Shown: piece after piece, positions 4,093-20,634 of the stretch
Layout of the letters: each line of letters opens with the position of its first letter
How positions within the stretch are numbered: the first letter of the stretch is position 1
Source: a virus
Virus record (IMG/VR): IMGVR_UViG_3300042868_006149
Location: 1 to 21,621 of that record
DNA: 21,621 bases
Reading direction: 5' to 3' (one strand)
Translations under genes and position numbers: made by a program
Notes under the pieces: generated by a model
What the model saw: the letters and a program-made list of their open reading frames with translations, nothing else
Databases searched by the model: none
What the model was told of the DNA's origin: nothing

Positions 4093-5579
4093 GCCTCACC
4101 AATATGCCCACCATTCAAGTCCTGTTTGCACCTTCTGTTGTTGGTGGGAACACGGGAACACGATTGGTGTTGGATGTTGGTCCCGGTCTCAATACTGGAA
4201 CCCTTGGTGATGGTGCGTTCTTTTATGACATCAGTTCATCTATTCGTAGTTTGTCCACTTCGCGTGGGCGTAGACGCGCGTTGGAACGGTTCGGAACGGG
4301 GACAGCGTCTGTTGTTCTAGACAATCTTGATCGCTCATTTGATCCAACCAACACAGCTTCACCGTATTACAACGCAACTGTTGGTGTGACCGGTGTTGTA
4401 CCTTCAATCCCGGTGATCATCCGGGCAACTTGGAACGGTGTCACCTACCCCATCTTCCGTGGCTCAATTGATTCTTGGACGTTCAACTATTCTGACGCAG
4501 GTGTTGGTGATGCAACTGCAACCATTGCGTGTTCGGATGCTTTCAAATCGTTGTCAAATGTGATTGGTGGTTTGCCATCGTCAGCAAGCATCACGTCAAG
4601 CGGTACCACTTCATATGACATTGGTGTGTCTCAGCCGTCAGATGGTGGCGGGTATGCCCCGTCATCAATTGATGTGACTGGTTCAGGGACAACCGGTGCA
4701 ATCAATGTTTCCGCTGGTACTGAAACCACACCTGTGATTGGGTCAGGCACTGACCTTCCCGGTGTCAGGATCACAACGATTCTTGACGCTATCGGATGGC
4801 CAGACAACCTTCGCCACATTGACGATGGCGTGACATACCTTGCACCACAGGACGCGTCAAAGACACCAATTGAAATGTTGCAGGAAGCAGCACAAGCTGA
4901 CTCCGGCGCAATCTACGTTGACGATGACGGAACAATCATCTTTGATGACCGAAATTCTATTATCTCTGAACCTCGCTGTATCACGGTTCAGTCTGTTTAT
5001 GACACCACGGATGTTGCAGGGAAGAAGTTCATTGACACATCAATTGTGTACGATGATTCCCTAATCTACAACATTGTTCGTGTTGACCGGAAGGTGACTA
5101 CCGCTGCTGGTGGTGAAGCTCTCACGGGAACAACTGTTGTTGTTGCTAATGCTGAGTCTGTGTCCCTGTACGGTGCGCGCACGCTGACAATCGATGTCCC
5201 CATTGTTTCCATAGTTGGATCAGACACAACGTATGGACAGGAGCAGGCATCTGGTCTCGCTTTGTTCCTTGCGTCTCAGTACGCAAATCCTGAATTGCGC
5301 CCGGAAGAAATCAGGTTTACGCCACAGGGTGACCCTGATGTGTTGTTCCCTGATCTTCTGTCACGGAAGATCCGTGACCGTGTGACAGTTAAGTTCGCTG
5401 TCCCCGGTGGTGGTGCTGCTGTGGAACGTGACTGCTTTGTTGAGTCCGTAGCGCACACAATCACGGCTGGAACGTGGAGTGTGACGTTGGGGCTATCATC
5501 AGCAACTTTCTATTCCGGTTTTTTTATTCTTGACAACAACAACTTTGGTGTGTTGAACACCAACAAACTTGCCTACTAG
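4089..5579 (+). CDS. Minor tail protein (tail tip / baseplate hub type)
   Basis: A 496-residue protein directly after the tape measure, where distal-tail and tail-associated (hub) proteins are found. The N-terminal 150 residues carry a pattern I know from actinophage minor tail proteins: RRRALERFGTGTASVVLDN then FDPTNTASPYYN, followed by PVIIRATWNGVTYPIFRGSIDSW. The rest is a repetitive hub-like beta fold with AIYVDDDGTIIFDDR and long beta segments. It starts ATG 4089, overlapping the tape measure stop (ATGA), so translation is probably coupled. It seems to combine Dit-like and hub functions, since no separate Dit gene is present between it and the tape measure. Receptor contact is inference. 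No catalytic motif was recognised. Confidence 0.75.
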   Translation: MSLTNMPTIQVLFAPSVVGGNTGTRLVLDVGPGLNTGTLGDGAFFYDISSSIRSLSTSRGRRRALERFGTGTASVVLDNLDRSFDPTNTASPYYNATVGVTGVVPSIPVIIRATWNGVTYPIFRGSIDSWTFNYSDAGVGDATATIACSDAFKSLSNVIGGLPSSASITSSGTTSYDIGVSQPSDGGGYAPSSIDVTGSGTTGAINVSAGTETTPVIGSGTDLPGVRITTILDAIGWPDNLRHIDDGVTYLAPQDASKTPIEMLQEAAQADSGAIYVDDDGTIIFDDRNSIISEPRCITVQSVYDTTDVAGKKFIDTSIVYDDSLIYNIVRVDRKVTTAAGGEALTGTTVVVANAESVSLYGARTLTIDVPIVSIVGSDTTYGQEQASGLALFLASQYANPELRPEEIRFTPQGDPDVLFPDLLSRKIRDRVTVKFAVPGGGAAVERDCFVESVAHTITAGTWSVTLGLSSATFYSGFFILDNNNFGVLNTNKLAY

Positions 5580-6229: not shown

Positions 6230-7287
6230 TGAGCTACTACCTGCTCGACCATCCGCCTGCCACCCCACAGTTCTACACAACACGGAACCGTGAACTGTCA
6301 GGTGGTGTGGTGATCCACACAACTGAAGGTTCAGGTGGCGACACCGCAGCAGAAAACACTGCCGGTTTCATTTCTCGCCGTTCCGACCCGGGCAGCTACC
6401 ACATGATTGTTGATACTGATTCCAGTGTTGCGATGATGCCTGATGAGTACACCGCTTTTGGTGTGGCCACCCCGGGGTTCAATTCTGCGTGTTGGATGAT
6501 TGCCATTGCCGCAAGGTCATCTGACCTTGACGGAACCAACCCGTTGACCCTGTTGGAAATTGATCGCATGGGTTCAGAAATCGTGGCGTTTTGGGAACGC
6601 AACAATGTTGATGTTGCGGCAGCGTCACAGTTCATTGGTGACGATGTGAAGAACCGCCCGGGCTTAGCCCATCACGGTGACGTGCAACCATCAGACAGGT
6701 CTGATGCGTGGTCACGCAGGGCTGACCGTTGGGTGTTTGACTCGCTGCTACTGCAAGCCATTGAACGGCACAGTGGGCAGCAGCCTGCCGTGCCACCTGT
6801 CCCCACCGAACCGACACCTGACCCTGCGGGTTCGGTGTTTGGCCCGGGGTCAACTGGTGACAAGGTGCGTGATATTCAGAAGGTTGTTGGCACCCCACAG
6901 GATGGCGTGTACGGGCCACAAACACAGGCCGCGGTTTTCCAGTGGCAAACCAACCTGAACGTGCCCGCAGACGGCATTTGGGGGCCACTCACGGCAAGTG
7001 CAACGCATGACCTGTTTGTGTTCCTGAACAACCTGCCTGCCGTGTCCCCGTCGAACCCGTGGTTGCAGGCGCTGGACTCAGCCCGGCAACAGGTACTGCG
7101 TGCCGGTTCGCAAGGTGATGCGGTGAAGGTCGCGCAAACCCTGTTGAACAACAAGGGTCATTGGCTGGTTGCTGATGGTGTGTTTGGCCCGGCAACGGAC
7201 AACGCAACCCGGCAGTTCCAACACAATTGTGGCCTTGCCGTTGACGGCATTGTTGGCACGCAGACTTGGAACGTGTTGGTGGCATGA
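6229..7287 (+). CDS. Endolysin: N-acetylmuramoyl-L-alanine amidase with two peptidoglycan-binding domains
   Basis: A 352-residue lysis enzyme that should cut the amide bond between muramic acid and the stem peptide. The N-terminal domain (about 1-180) is Amidase_2/PGRP-like. VVIHTTEG places the first zinc ligand at H30; HGDVQPSDRSD supplies H149 and D159, spaced ten residues apart as in AmpD-type enzymes. SYHMIVD (H58) is the usual mid-domain motif. A proline-rich linker (about 182-203) leads to two PG_binding_1 repeats: about 204-265 (DGVYGPQT, DGIWGPLT) and 290-352 (ADGVFGPATDNATRQFQ, DGIVGTQTW). There is no signal peptide, so holin-assisted release is expected. ATG 6229 overlaps the preceding stop. 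Confidence 0.92.
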   Translation: MSYYLLDHPPATPQFYTTRNRELSGGVVIHTTEGSGGDTAAENTAGFISRRSDPGSYHMIVDTDSSVAMMPDEYTAFGVATPGFNSACWMIAIAARSSDLDGTNPLTLLEIDRMGSEIVAFWERNNVDVAAASQFIGDDVKNRPGLAHHGDVQPSDRSDAWSRRADRWVFDSLLLQAIERHSGQQPAVPPVPTEPTPDPAGSVFGPGSTGDKVRDIQKVVGTPQDGVYGPQTQAAVFQWQTNLNVPADGIWGPLTASATHDLFVFLNNLPAVSPSNPWLQALDSARQQVLRAGSQGDAVKVAQTLLNNKGHWLVADGVFGPATDNATRQFQHNCGLAVDGIVGTQTWNVLVA

Positions 7288-7290
7288 ACC

Positions 7291-7584
7291 ATGTTTGCGC
7301 AAATTGTTGATTCACCGGGTTTTGGTGCCGCTGAATGGGTGGCAATCCTCACCTGCATCAGCCTTGTGTTGGGTGCCATCACTGCACTGGTTGTGCAGAT
7401 AGTGCGCCTAAGAAATGAGAACACCGAACAGCACGCAGATAACCGGCAGGTTGTGGTTGATGTTCGTGACCGGCTGCTTGATTTGCACCAGTCAGTTGAA
7501 CGTGTTGACAACAAGGTTGGAAAGCTTGACGCACGCCTTGACAGGCATGAGAATATCCATCACCGCGGCAAGCGGCGCTGGTAG
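7291..7584 (+). CDS. Membrane-anchored coiled-coil protein (possible lysis accessory, DUF2746-like)
   Basis: A 97-residue protein with one strong transmembrane segment (about residues 13-39, WVAILTCISLVLGAITALVV) and a charged helical C-terminal half with heptad-like spacing (LLDLHQSVERVDNKVGKLDARLD), ending in HENIHHRGKRRW. Small proteins with one N-terminal TM and a coiled coil, located next to the endolysin, are common in actinophages (DUF2746 type) and are considered holin-like or spanin-like accessories. It starts three bases after the endolysin stop. A clear holin of another family lies at 9016-9294, so this one is more likely an accessory than the main pore-former; that is inference. 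Confidence 0.6.
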   Translation: MFAQIVDSPGFGAAEWVAILTCISLVLGAITALVVQIVRLRNENTEQHADNRQVVVDVRDRLLDLHQSVERVDNKVGKLDARLDRHENIHHRGKRRW

Positions 7585-7612
7585 TCCTATCGTCTAAAGA
7601 ACGGGCAAGGGC

Positions 7613-8431
7613 ATGACAGAACAAAAGCCGCGCACACATTTGGTGATCCCCGACACGCAAGCAAAGCCGGGTACACCTAACGATGCGTTGGGTTGGATCG
7701 GTGCCTACATAGTCGAAAAGCAACCTGACGTTGTTGTGCATTTGGGTGACCATTTCGATGGCCCTAGCCTGTCCAGTTGGGATGTTGGCAAAAAGGATTT
7801 TGAAGGTCGCCGTTACCGTGATGACGTTGACGCTGCCAACAAAGCGTTTGATGTGTTGTGTGAACCTATGGAAAAGCACAACCGGCAGAAAGCCAAGCAA
7901 AGCAAAAAGCAATACCGCCCTGAACTGGTCATGTTGCACGGCAACCATGAACACCGCATACAACGCGCCATTGATAGCAATGCGGCGCATTTGGATGGCA
8001 TCATCAGTTTGGATGATCTGAACTACGCAGATCACGGTTGGCAGGTTGTGCCGTTCCTGCAACCCATCAACATTGATGGTGTCTGGTACGCGCATTATTG
8101 GGCTAACCCCATGACGGGCAGACCGTATGGGGGCAATGCCACTACACGGTTGAAACAGGTGGGCCACAGTTTCACGATGGGCCATCAACAGGTTTTGGAT
8201 TACGCAATCAGGTTTGTTGCGGGGCGTTCACAACACGCTTTGATTGCCGGCAGTTCGTATTTGCATTCCGAAAAATACTTAGGGCCACAAGGCAACGATC
8301 ATTGGCGCGGCATCATTGTGAAACATCAGGTTGAAAACGGTTCTTACGATCCGATGTTTGTTAGCCTTGATTATTTGTGCCGACGTTTTGAAGGCAAACC
8401 ATTGTCCAAATTTATGCAACACATTTACTGA
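7613..8431 (+). CDS. Calcineurin-like metallophosphoesterase
   Basis: A 272-residue enzyme of the metallophosphoesterase superfamily, which uses two metal ions to hydrolyse phosphoesters. Ordered motifs are visible: PDTQ (D14, with Q in place of the usual H), HLGDHFD (GD45-46 and D49), LHGNHEHR (GNHE 110-113), YAHYW (H161) and MGHQQ (H191). These correspond to the metal-binding blocks of the family, with the first block altered from DxH to DTQ, as seen in many phage members. The substrate is not predictable; DNA ends, cyclic nucleotides and phosphoproteins are all possible. It lies in the late region after the lysis genes, with a clear SD-like CAAGGG before ATG 7613. The gene ends upstream of the promoter/inverted-repeat region at 8432-8517. 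Confidence 0.85.
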   Translation: MTEQKPRTHLVIPDTQAKPGTPNDALGWIGAYIVEKQPDVVVHLGDHFDGPSLSSWDVGKKDFEGRRYRDDVDAANKAFDVLCEPMEKHNRQKAKQSKKQYRPELVMLHGNHEHRIQRAIDSNAAHLDGIISLDDLNYADHGWQVVPFLQPINIDGVWYAHYWANPMTGRPYGGNATTRLKQVGHSFTMGHQQVLDYAIRFVAGRSQHALIAGSSYLHSEKYLGPQGNDHWRGIIVKHQVENGSYDPMFVSLDYLCRRFEGKPLSKFMQHIY

Positions 8432-17209: not shown

Positions 17210-18428
17210 ACAACCGCACGTTCAAATCAGGTTGGGTGATTGCCGTGACCTGATTGCAGCCATGCCCACAGAATCAGTTGATTCAATTGTCACTGACCCG
17301 CCGTATGAACTTGGGTTCATGGGTAAGAAATGGGACGCATCAGGCATTGCGTACAACGTTGCCTTGTGGCGTGAATGTTTGCGTGTCCTGAAACCGGGCG
17401 GGCACATGCTTGCGTTCGGTGGAACACGCACCTATCACCGCATGACCTGTGCAATAGAGGATGCGGGGTTTGAAATCCGTGACTGCATCGTGTGGTTGTA
17501 TTCGTCCGGGTTCCCCAAATCACACAACGTTTCAAAATCAATTGACCGCAAAGCCGGTGCAAAACGTGAAGTTGTTGCAACGCGGCCACTGACCGGAAAC
17601 GGCAAAACAATGCGTTCAGGTTTTCACCAACCTGACGGCACTGGTGCAGGCAACACCGTGATGCAAGACGTTTTTGAAATCACTGCACCGGCAACTGATG
17701 CAGCACAACAGTGGGACGGTTGGGGCACTGCGTTGAAACCAGCCAATGAACCAATCGTGGTTGCACGCAAACCATTGAATGGAACAGTTGCTGAAAGTGT
17801 GCAGCAGCACGGCACTGGTGCCATGAACATTGACAGCGCACGCATTGACATGGGTGATGAATATGACCCTGACAAAGTGCAACGGCAACAACACAGTGCC
17901 GGTGCGATTGATGGCGCATTTGGTGCTGCATCATTAGTTGGCAAAGAAATCCCCACCTACAACGCAAAAGGGCGTTGGCCTGCCAATGTAATTGCCAACG
18001 AACTAATGGTGGAAGATTGGGTCAAATACTTCTTCACCCCGAAAGCGTCACGGGCCGAACGTAACGCAGGGCTAGACGCACTGGAACTGAAACACACAGA
18101 CTTTGGCGGGGGTGGCAAACCCGGTTCAGGGTTCAACGAAGTCACACACGGCAAAGCACCGGCACCAGCACCCAACAATCACCCAACCGTGAAACCGTTA
18201 GCGTTGATGCGTTACCTTGTGCGCCTAGTCACCCCACCAAACGGCACAGTGCTGGAACCGTTCGCAGGGTCAGGCACCACACTTGTTGCAGCAGTGTTGG
18301 AAGGGTTCAACGCCATAGGTTGCGAACTGACCCCCGACTACCTGCCAATAATTGAAGGCCGGGTGCAATGGGCACGCGAACAACACCACAACCAACCATC
18401 AACACTGTTTGGGGACAGCAATGGATGA
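17202..18428 (+). CDS. DNA methyltransferase, beta-class N6-adenine type
   Basis: A 408-residue S-adenosylmethionine-dependent DNA methyltransferase. DPPY (residues 32-35) is catalytic motif IV, with the Asp expected for adenine-N6 enzymes; motif I, EPFAGSGTT, comes late (352-358). Catalytic motif before cofactor motif is the beta-class order. Other family signs are LKPGGHMLAFGGTRT (motif V/VI region) and HPTVKPLALMRYLVR just before motif I. It could protect phage DNA from host restriction or regulate timing; no partner nuclease is beside it. ATG 17202 has the sequence ATGGATGA shared with the upstream stop, identical to the junction downstream at 18421. Confidence 0.85.
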   Translation: MDEQPHVQIRLGDCRDLIAAMPTESVDSIVTDPPYELGFMGKKWDASGIAYNVALWRECLRVLKPGGHMLAFGGTRTYHRMTCAIEDAGFEIRDCIVWLYSSGFPKSHNVSKSIDRKAGAKREVVATRPLTGNGKTMRSGFHQPDGTGAGNTVMQDVFEITAPATDAAQQWDGWGTALKPANEPIVVARKPLNGTVAESVQQHGTGAMNIDSARIDMGDEYDPDKVQRQQHSAGAIDGAFGAASLVGKEIPTYNAKGRWPANVIANELMVEDWVKYFFTPKASRAERNAGLDALELKHTDFGGGGKPGSGFNEVTHGKAPAPAPNNHPTVKPLALMRYLVRLVTPPNGTVLEPFAGSGTTLVAAVLEGFNAIGCELTPDYLPIIEGRVQWAREQHHNQPSTLFGDSNG

Positions 18429-20634
18429 CGTAATCGATTACGCAGAAACATACGCAGCAAACGGTTGGCCCGTCATCCCAATCATTCCCGGGGGCAAAAG
18501 GCCACCAATGCATTCATGGCAGCACGTTGCCACTACCGAACTTGAAATAATCCACCAATGGTTTGCGAACCAGTACACCGGGCATGGGGTCGGGGTCGCC
18601 ACAGGCAATGGGCTGTTCATTCTAGATGTGGACATTTCAAACGGTAAAACTGGAGACGAAACCCTTCACGAACTGGAACAGGCATACGGGCCACTTCCCG
18701 ACACTGCCACAGTGCTGACGGGCAGCGGCGGGGTTCACTATTACTTCACACACCCTGATGGCATCGAAATCAGGAACGATGCAGGCAGAAGATTAGGCCC
18801 CGGCATCGATGTGCGGGGGGCAGGTGGGCAGTGCGTGGCCCCCCCAACAGTTCACGCAAATGGCACCCCCTACACATGGGTTGGTGGTGAACCCTCAGCA
18901 GTGGCCCCTGCCCCCGGATGGTTGCTGCACATGCTCACCCACACAGAAACCCCCGCAACGCAGCACACGGGCACACAGGGGGCAATCACGGCACCTGACG
19001 ATTCTGTTGCCGCCCGATACAACCAGCGGACAACGTGGGCCGGGCTACTCACAGACGACGGTTGGACCCTCGCACACACAGACCGGTCAGGTGAACAGCA
19101 CTGGACCCGGCCCGGCAAAGACGAACGTGACGGCACCAGCGCAACCGTAGGGTGGAATCAGCAAGACATGATGCGGGTGTTCACCACATCCATTGACTGG
19201 TTACCCGAAGCCGCGTACTCACGGTTCGGGTACTACGCCTGCCGACATCACGCAGGTGACAGGTCAGCGGCAGCGAAACACCTAAACGAACTAGACAACG
19301 CAGCGTTCAACACATGGCAAAACAACCTGCCCACCACCACACCAACCACACCAACCAACACACCACCCGCAGATGACCCCGAACTGCAACACGGATGGGA
19401 ACCAACCGACCTTGCCGCCATCATCAAAGCCGGATGGGAACCCGTAAAACCTGAGCTACTGCAACGCGCAGACGGGGCGTGCCTGTTCTACCCCCAAAGA
19501 ATAAACGCACTGTACGGGGAATCAGGCAGCGGCAAAACATGGGTGGCCATGACCACCGCAGCCCAACAAATAAACAAAGGGCAACGCGTCCTATTCCTCG
19601 ACTTCGAAGATCACCCCGGCAGTGTCACCGACCGGATGCGGCAACTTGGATGCAATGACAAACAACTAGTGGAACTGTTCACCTACATCAGCCCCCTAAT
19701 GCCATTCACCGAACGGGCCGGGCACTACCTTGAAACCCTCATCATCACACTGAACATCAGCCTGTGCATCATCGATTCAACCGGCGAGGCAGTCAGCATG
19801 GACGGCATCAACCCCAACGCTGACGAAGAAATCGCAGCATGGTTCCGCAAAGTGCCCCGCCGCATCACCCGGGCCGGGGCCACCGTCCTACTGCTAGACC
19901 ATGTGCCCAAATCAAACGAATCCAACAAACGGTTTGCCATCGGATCACAACGCAAACTTGCTGCCATCGATGGCGCGTCATACCGGGTGGACGCAACCAC
20001 CCCGCCCGCCAAAGGCATGGAAGGCAAACTGAAACTGACCGTAGCCAAAGACAGACACGGCAACTACCAGCACGGCAGCATCGTGGCCAACATCACAGTC
20101 ACAGACACACAGACCGGTGTGCATGTCACAGTCACAGACCCCCAACACACACAACCCAATGAGGCAATGGAAATCATCAGCCGGACATTGGGCATGGGTT
20201 CCCAAACCCAAAACGCACTGATCAAAGCGTGCGCCCCGATACCCGCCCGGCAAGTCAAAGCATCACTGGAAGAAATGATTGCCACAGGTTATGTGGAACG
20301 CACCGTGAGAACAGGTCAAGGCGGGGGGTTCAACCTCTCACTAATCAAAGCATTTGACCCCATCGACACGCTCACAATCACAGACCCAACAGGGCCACAA
20401 CAACCACAACAACCACACACTGAACCGAACTGTTACAACCGCGCCGAACTGATACAACCGGAAGCGGAACAGTTGCCAGAATCGAACTGTTACAACCGCG
20501 CCGCCCCTTTACAAAAAGGGGCGCGTGAAACAGTTCAATGGGACCAAAAAACAGAACCCCAAACACCGAACCTTTCCGCACCCACCGAAACAGTTCCAGC
20601 CCCGCAACCCACCCAACCATTCAACCCGTTCTGA
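18421..20634 (+). CDS. Bifunctional primase-polymerase / RecA-like helicase
   Basis: A 737-residue replication protein. The N-terminal archaeo-eukaryotic primase (PrimPol) domain (about 1-200) shows FILDVDIS with D69 and D71, GGVHYYF with H106, and GIDVRGAGGQCVAPP with D130, the three active-site blocks of bifunctional primase/polymerases. A low-complexity Thr/Pro linker (near residues 303-318) leads to a RecA-like ATPase: Walker A GESGSGKT (366-373), VLFLDFEDHPG, the Walker B-like CIIDST (D452) and LLLDHVPK (D493, H494), as in RepA/AAA_25 helicases. A winged-helix region follows (about 580-650), then a disordered Q/P-rich tail. ATG 18421 has GGGGACAGCA upstream. The last third of the gene carries a repeat cluster (20426-20523). 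Confidence 0.88.
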   Translation: MDDVIDYAETYAANGWPVIPIIPGGKRPPMHSWQHVATTELEIIHQWFANQYTGHGVGVATGNGLFILDVDISNGKTGDETLHELEQAYGPLPDTATVLTGSGGVHYYFTHPDGIEIRNDAGRRLGPGIDVRGAGGQCVAPPTVHANGTPYTWVGGEPSAVAPAPGWLLHMLTHTETPATQHTGTQGAITAPDDSVAARYNQRTTWAGLLTDDGWTLAHTDRSGEQHWTRPGKDERDGTSATVGWNQQDMMRVFTTSIDWLPEAAYSRFGYYACRHHAGDRSAAAKHLNELDNAAFNTWQNNLPTTTPTTPTNTPPADDPELQHGWEPTDLAAIIKAGWEPVKPELLQRADGACLFYPQRINALYGESGSGKTWVAMTTAAQQINKGQRVLFLDFEDHPGSVTDRMRQLGCNDKQLVELFTYISPLMPFTERAGHYLETLIITLNISLCIIDSTGEAVSMDGINPNADEEIAAWFRKVPRRITRAGATVLLLDHVPKSNESNKRFAIGSQRKLAAIDGASYRVDATTPPAKGMEGKLKLTVAKDRHGNYQHGSIVANITVTDTQTGVHVTVTDPQHTQPNEAMEIISRTLGMGSQTQNALIKACAPIPARQVKASLEEMIATGYVERTVRTGQGGGFNLSLIKAFDPIDTLTITDPTGPQQPQQPHTEPNCYNRAELIQPEAEQLPESNCYNRAAPLQKGARETVQWDQKTEPQTPNLSAPTETVPAPQPTQPFNPF
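20426..20523. repeat. Degenerate ~19-bp repeats plus a perfect hairpin, candidate origin
   Basis: Within the 3' part of the PrimPol-helicase gene. Copy 1 at 20426-20446 and copy 2 at 20483-20503 are identical over 21 bases (core CGAACTGTTACAACCG). A copy with one mismatch lies at 20445-20460 and a weaker one at 20466-20477. The 57-bp distance is three 19-bp steps. Immediately after comes a perfect 9-bp hairpin: CGCCCCTTT (20502-20510), loop ACAA, AAAGGGGCG (20515-20523). GAAACAGTTC occurs twice further on (20527 and 20587). Repeats beside a hairpin near a replication initiator gene are typical of iteron origins. Confidence 0.55.

Follow-up and report, generated by a model that had tools for sequence, protein, structure and literature searches.

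The 3' tail of the PrimPol-helicase gene in this viral record (approximately positions 20428-20595) is very probably the replication origin of the phage, overprinted on the coding sequence for its initiator's unstructured C-terminus. This reading, which comes from comparative sequence analysis, is supported by several observations: the DNA layout is kept while the amino acids change in the closest relatives; the words that compose the array cluster only in the tail, where a predicted extended stem-loop contains compensated pairs; tails are repeat-rich family-wide, with words in multiple frames and on two strands and with DnaA boxes in relatives; and arrays lie in non-coding DNA right after the gene in more distant relatives. 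It also draws on protein matches to pRN1 ORF904 and RSF1010 RepA, and on the precedents of pRN1 and pWTY27. Against it stand a window subgroup with neither a DnaA box nor an AT-rich tract, an uninformative GC skew, a nearly unchanged helix-turn-helix region despite different words, and relatives that carry no array (L038-L040 and about half of the distant elements). An earlier note had proposed a candidate origin at this place, and the comparison supports that proposal through the retained layout with changing residues and through the DnaA boxes and non-coding arrays of relatives.

To our knowledge, most tailed phages have no mapped origin. Should the origin be the 3' tail of the PrimPol-helicase gene, sequence alone would suffice to locate it in a large group of uncultured phages and in some plasmids. 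Dozens of natural origin and initiator pairs with different words would then be available, making the joint change of specificity and sites testable, and the low-complexity tails of these proteins (NCYNRA, SVSRVS, CAPCAPCAH, GTTWEP, PVDN) would be explained as DNA sites, not protein motifs.

The end of the replication gene

The window, meaning the whole 21.6 kb viral record (G000), carries genes for tail, endolysin, exonuclease, methyltransferase, and replication functions, the PrimPol-helicase gene being the last large one. Its product comprises a PrimPol domain (aa 7-166; PF09250, E 4.7e-45), a conserved middle region (~190-290), a helicase (~345-520; PF13481, AAA_25, E 5.2e-12), a helix-turn-helix region (~580-650), and a disordered tail (~653-736). 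When the family profile was compared with solved structures, the PrimPol part matched pRN1 ORF904 (1rni, E 1.3e-6; 3m1m) and the helicase part RSF1010 RepA (1g8y, E 3.4e-8). There is no SF3 helicase domain, its place being taken by AAA_25/RepA; the initiator belongs to a PrimPol/RepA family instead of showing homology to lambda O; and no RepC-like gene was seen among the proteins searched, with PrimPol fused to the helicase. The structure model, which is only moderately confident (mean pLDDT 67.5), predicts helices at residues 580-590, 596-602, and 608-620 that would be compatible with a helix-turn-helix, while pLDDT falls below 50 for residues 622-736. The top results of a structure search were swamped by generic RecA/KaiC folds, and two scans of bacterial genome contigs returned no close relative.

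The middle region (window 18991-19293) reads ARYN..TTW..LL..DGW...EQHWTRPGKD...SAT and is conserved in all 57 loci studied below. It is common to proteins with entirely different helicase modules and received no Pfam name in the scans.

Between 18115 and 21621 of the window, and likewise in records G002, G003, and G004, the PrimPol gene and the next gene are C-rich on the sense strand, against a G-rich remainder. This local break in composition suggests that the PrimPol module has a separate history. The turning point of the skew is therefore no marker of an origin, and GC skew was set aside as uninformative in the window record.

Table 1. Coordinates of the initiator gene and of the elements in its tail (window positions).
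Feature	Position	Strand	Sequence and remarks
Initiator gene	18424-20634	+	PrimPol, middle region, RepA/AAA_25 RecA-like helicase, helix-turn-helix region, disordered tail
21-bp repeat, copy 1	20426-20446	+	CGAACTGTTACAACCGCGCCG; words AACTGTTAC (20428-20436) and AACCGCGCC (20437-20445)
Degenerate word site	20447-20459	+	AACTGATACAACC; 12/13 copy, 19 bp beyond 20428
Inverted word	20466-20474	-	GGAACAGTT; 38 bp beyond first site; present in all relatives (GGAGCAGTT in L015, L017)
21-bp repeat, copy 2	20483-20503	+	CGAACTGTTACAACCGCGCCG; AACTGTTAC (20485-20493) is the left outer arm; AACCGCGCC (20494-20502)
Perfect hairpin	20502-20523		CGCCCCTTT-ACAA-AAAGGGGCG; 9-bp stem, 4-nt loop
Inverted word, right outer arm	20527-20535	-	GAAACAGTT; partner of 20485-20493, hairpin between them
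Distal inverted word	20587-20595	-	GAAACAGTT; GGCGCGGTT in L014-L017

The final ~200 bases of the replication gene hold the repeats and the stem-loop (Table 1). The two identical 21-bp repeats are offset by 57 bp, or 3 x 19, and the word sites at 20428, 20447, 20466 (inverted), and 20485 follow 19-bp steps, a regularity of four sites seen in the window subgroup. This step is no whole number of helical turns, and other lineages use another spacing. Much of this had been described in the earlier note: the identical repeats, the perfect 9-bp hairpin adjoining them, and the location in the disordered 3' end of the gene (in keeping with the predicted disorder) were all confirmed, as was the repetition of the residue string NCYNRA in the protein tail, the exact repeats sharing a reading frame through their 57-bp offset. 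Where it had placed further degenerate copies at 19-bp steps, the first step holds a 12/13 copy and the second an inverted word. The note had missed the three inverted words, and its extent of 20426-20523 proved too tight, since the element covers at least 20428-20595.

The repeat analysis that the note had called for showed that no other 300-nt window in the record is as rich in repeats as the tail (34 shared 8-mer pairs, against 21 for the next window), and none of 200 dinucleotide shuffles of the tail reached its score. Allowing at most one mismatch, AACTGTTACAACC occurs three times in the window, always within the tail. The predicted DNA fold of 20481-20541 has an energy of -19.4 kcal/mol (z -5.6), and none of 200 shuffles was equally stable. 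Tails of the window subgroup contain no AT-rich tract, with a GC content of 0.52-0.55 in and around the element versus 0.53 record-wide, and no DnaA box. Genome-wide stoperator-like sites were considered and rejected, as there are no word clusters outside the tail.

Changing words in a constant layout

The same protein, 67-82% identical right through to the tail, is encoded in six IMG/VR records, all of which retain the slots, their spacing, and the hairpin region, with varying slot filling. The word in the direct slots is AACTGTTAC in the window, AACTGTTCC in L013 and L018, and AACCGCGCC in L014-L017, and the inverted slots hold the matching complements (GAAACAGTT, GGAACAGTT, GGCGCGGT), so that the switch between TGTT-type and CGCG-type words occurs at direct and inverted slots together. 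The tail residues vary with the DNA (NCYNRA, NCSNRA, NRANRA). That layout and hairpin are kept while the encoded residues change is the opposite of the outcome that had been named beforehand as counting against an origin. Most genomes keep GGAACAGTT in the inverted slot at 20466, and CGCG-type words predominate at the second position of each pair; each genome thus mixes both word types, and the concerted change is strong at five slots, not total. In L014, segments of the tail are like the L016 lineage and the flanks like L013, and recombination of tails may lie behind part of the concerted change. In every record searched, clusters of the words are confined to the tail.

Segment 20485-20535 and its counterparts are predicted to form one extended stem-loop as DNA, with z from -5.6 to -6.9 in the window and the four relatives folded. 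The outer stem contains three doubly compensated pairs in the relatives, a signal that is lost on sliding the partner columns, and none of 500 shuffles reached the observed covariation score. As only six distinct sequences were available, the compensatory pairing is better taken as suggestive than as strong evidence.

The most interesting question raised by the locus is what reads the word. Between L001 and L002 the helix-turn-helix region is 91% identical although the words differ, and recognition of the word by this region was rejected as an explanation because TGTT-type and CGCG-type genomes are not told apart by any residue there. Of the folded parts, the middle region at 167-290 differs most between the same two proteins (74% identical, compared with 98% for PrimPol). 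It is conceivable, if somewhat doubtful, that the tail is a swappable origin cassette, whose word can switch in concert, inverted copies included, with no matching helix-turn-helix change, either because the initiator recognizes chiefly the shape of the stem-loop that the words build or because the middle region (aa ~190-290) determines specificity. Were this so, overprinting on a disordered tail would keep origin and initiator together through every recombination event.

Searching with a profile built from the N-terminal part recovered 62 loci, and repeat statistics on the last 400 nt of the gene cover 57 loci. Helicase modules vary among them (AAA_25 or DUF3987) and the tails are unalignable between groups, nearly all being filled with repeats of their own lineage-specific word. 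The last 400 nt are the most repeat-rich 400-nt stretch in 45 of the 57 loci, and the tail scores above all 200 shuffles in 51. Both orientations are used, and a word commonly falls in two or three frames; that of L043, GGAACCAC, occupies all three forward frames (3, 2, and 2 copies) and is found twice in reverse, so that the protein reads GTT, WEP, GNH, and VVP. Such multi-frame, two-orientation words would not be the product of protein-level selection. Most tails also carry a C-run/G-run or other perfect hairpin. In the tails of one large subgroup, L052-L069, there are three words, GGGAACCA or GGTACC, and usually a hairpin CCGTACCGATAGGTACGG, with HRTDRYG encoded; this array is a reduced, minimal version of the element.

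No tail array was found in L038-L040, IMG/VR relatives. The windows that outscore the tail in L038, L072, and L078 were dismissed as low-complexity coding sequence or tandem repeats that are not origin-like, the one in L038 being an ordinary threonine-rich coding repeat. In L072 (4290-4500), near-perfect in-frame repeats of LPHLGDAGQGVNRQ lie in an apparent DNA methyltransferase gene, and this repeat is missing from the top repeat scores of sister loci.

A perfect DnaA box, TTATCCACA, is present in 16 tails, with 18 boxes in total compared with 6 elsewhere in the loci. Taking one representative per protein cluster (n=12), there are 6 boxes in 4,800 nt of tail versus 3 in 96,092 nt elsewhere (p 9e-7), and tails of 6 of the 12 clusters have a box. 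The box usually encodes PVDN, and all 17 PVDN tetrapeptides in tails, which lie 9 to 82 residues before the protein end in five clusters, use exactly CCTGTGGATAAC; in L048 the box has the opposite orientation. Because the window's own subgroup has no box, this evidence bears on the family and not directly on the window. DnaA boxes are common, not universal, in iteron-type origins.

A proposed mechanism and competing explanations

The precedents of pRN1, pWTY27, RSF1010, and lambda allow us to propose how such an origin could operate. The initiator would bind the short words at 19-bp steps in both orientations, and binding would bend and open the DNA. The segment made of word, hairpin, and inverted word, whose predicted structure is kept by compensatory change, could then be extruded as an extended stem-loop. 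Judging by its fold, the RepA-like hexameric helicase domain would load at the element, and by analogy with pRN1 ORF904 and RSF1010 RepB' the PrimPol domain may prime on or beside the exposed stem-loop, to be extended by the host polymerase. In many relatives, where a perfect DnaA box lies in the same tail, it is plausible that host DnaA assists.

Downstream of the tail come a small gene, an HNH gene, and, in L016, terminase genes, and clustered words in two orientations would also suit an operator or a partition site. Some other cis-acting role, in packaging (pac), partition, or the control of downstream genes, is nevertheless unlikely: the array is tied to the end of the primase-helicase gene across helicase modules, phages, and plasmids, DnaA boxes occur in the same tails, and a promoter scan found no promoter-like site within or after the element. 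It is less likely still that the repeats are a by-product of an RNA element at the mRNA end, such as a terminator, attenuator, or stability hairpin. Both the hairpin and the extended stem-loop could form in RNA too, but an RNA element does not account for words in two orientations over 170 bp, for the DnaA boxes, or for arrays running into non-coding DNA, and at this place an Rfam scan gave no match to the element and a terminator scan no call at the hairpin.

We regard as very improbable a repeat maintained at the protein level, in which a short linear motif of the disordered tail (NCYNRA and the like) would bind SSB, a polymerase, or a similar partner. The two exact repeats do stand in frame, 57 bp apart, with the same residues; close relatives, by contrast, change the residues and keep the DNA layout, words are inverted and spread over two or three frames, and comparable arrays are non-coding in relatives. 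Selfish or recombination-prone repeats with no replication role, acting as a hotspot of exchange at the gene end, seem just as remote, since the repeats are absent from the rest of the genomes, follow a single gene through several lineages, preserve compensatory pairing, and are accompanied by DnaA boxes, even if the mixed L014 tail (part L016-lineage-like, part L013-like) indicates that exchange probably occurs.

Known replicons and more distant relatives

The origin reading has close precedents. In the Sulfolobus plasmid pRN1 an essential, movable stem-loop lies directly 3' of orf904, its structure kept while its sequence varies; its authors noted that direct proof of an origin was lacking and proposed the same for Bordetella phage BIP-1 (PMC4234260). 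Like the window, pRN1 combines a PrimPol-helicase initiator bearing a C-terminal DNA-binding domain with a stem-loop at the gene's 3' end that survives sequence change. It differs in having an SF3 helicase, no iterons, and a stem-loop outside the reading frame, whereas the window has a RepA/AAA_25 helicase, iteron-like words, and an element inside the frame. The minimal replicon of the Streptomyces theta plasmid pWTY27 consists of a primase/polymerase gene (RepB), repA, and, next to them, an iteron whose words run in either direction and in which RepA binds and protects an inverted repeat (PMC3583192). This plasmid and pFP11 share with the window a primase/polymerase gene, a short word in both orientations, and long inverted repeats, but their primase and RepA are separate genes and the iteron is non-coding. 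The pFP11 array lies ~540 bp behind the rep gene, and pFP11 RepA has no Pfam match.

The oriV of RSF1010 (IncQ), as summarized in PMC4234260, contains iterons and stem-loops used in priming. RSF1010 resembles the window in these and in its RepA-type hexameric helicase, and departs from it in using three separate proteins (RepA, RepB', RepC), a different primase, and a non-coding origin; in the window primase and helicase are fused and the candidate origin is overprinted. Phage lambda carries iterons within gene O, the coding sequence of its own initiator (PMC7466680), a placement shared with the window, although the initiator is unrelated, the site lies mid-gene, and an AT-rich tract stands where the window has a GC-rich hairpin. 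In the window a short site recurs several times close together at the initiator gene, a trait of iteron origins, and we would say that its element works like the classical AT-rich iteron origins rather than that it is a member of them. Origins placed at the end of a PrimPol-helicase gene are already known, as, separately, are origins within an initiator gene. Their combination, in which iterons, a stem-loop, and often a DnaA box occupy a disordered PrimPol/RepA-type tail and lineage-specific words extend through a large group of phages, did not turn up in the open-access papers searched.

Among more distant elements, Rhizobium phage RHph_X2_25 (PrimPol plus AAA_25) has its array in non-coding DNA from the gene's stop onward, where GCGTGACA occurs 14 times, in direct and inverted form, alongside a CCCC-TTTA-GGGG hairpin. 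Comparable non-coding arrays come immediately after the helicase gene in Microcystis phage MinS1, phage P8625, and a Pseudonocardia plasmid; the Streptomyces NBC_00859 plasmid has one that runs across the stop; and Microbacterium phage Rasputia has a weaker array and a DnaA box behind the gene. About 11 other named PrimPol phages and plasmids, roughly half of those sampled, lacked a clear array where the gene ends, and the arrangement is thus common, not universal. In the Kineococcus plasmid pKRAD02 (L094) the array is in frame within the tail of an AAA_25 protein (4600-4790) and uses GGAACCAC, the word of L043-L048; an initiator specificity common to this plasmid and those phages is possible. 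Achromobacter phage 83-24 (L107) contains a dense array of short repeats at 7251-7700, with more than 1000 shared 8-mer pairs in 300 nt, ~0.8 kb behind its PrimPol gene and beside an annotated terminator.
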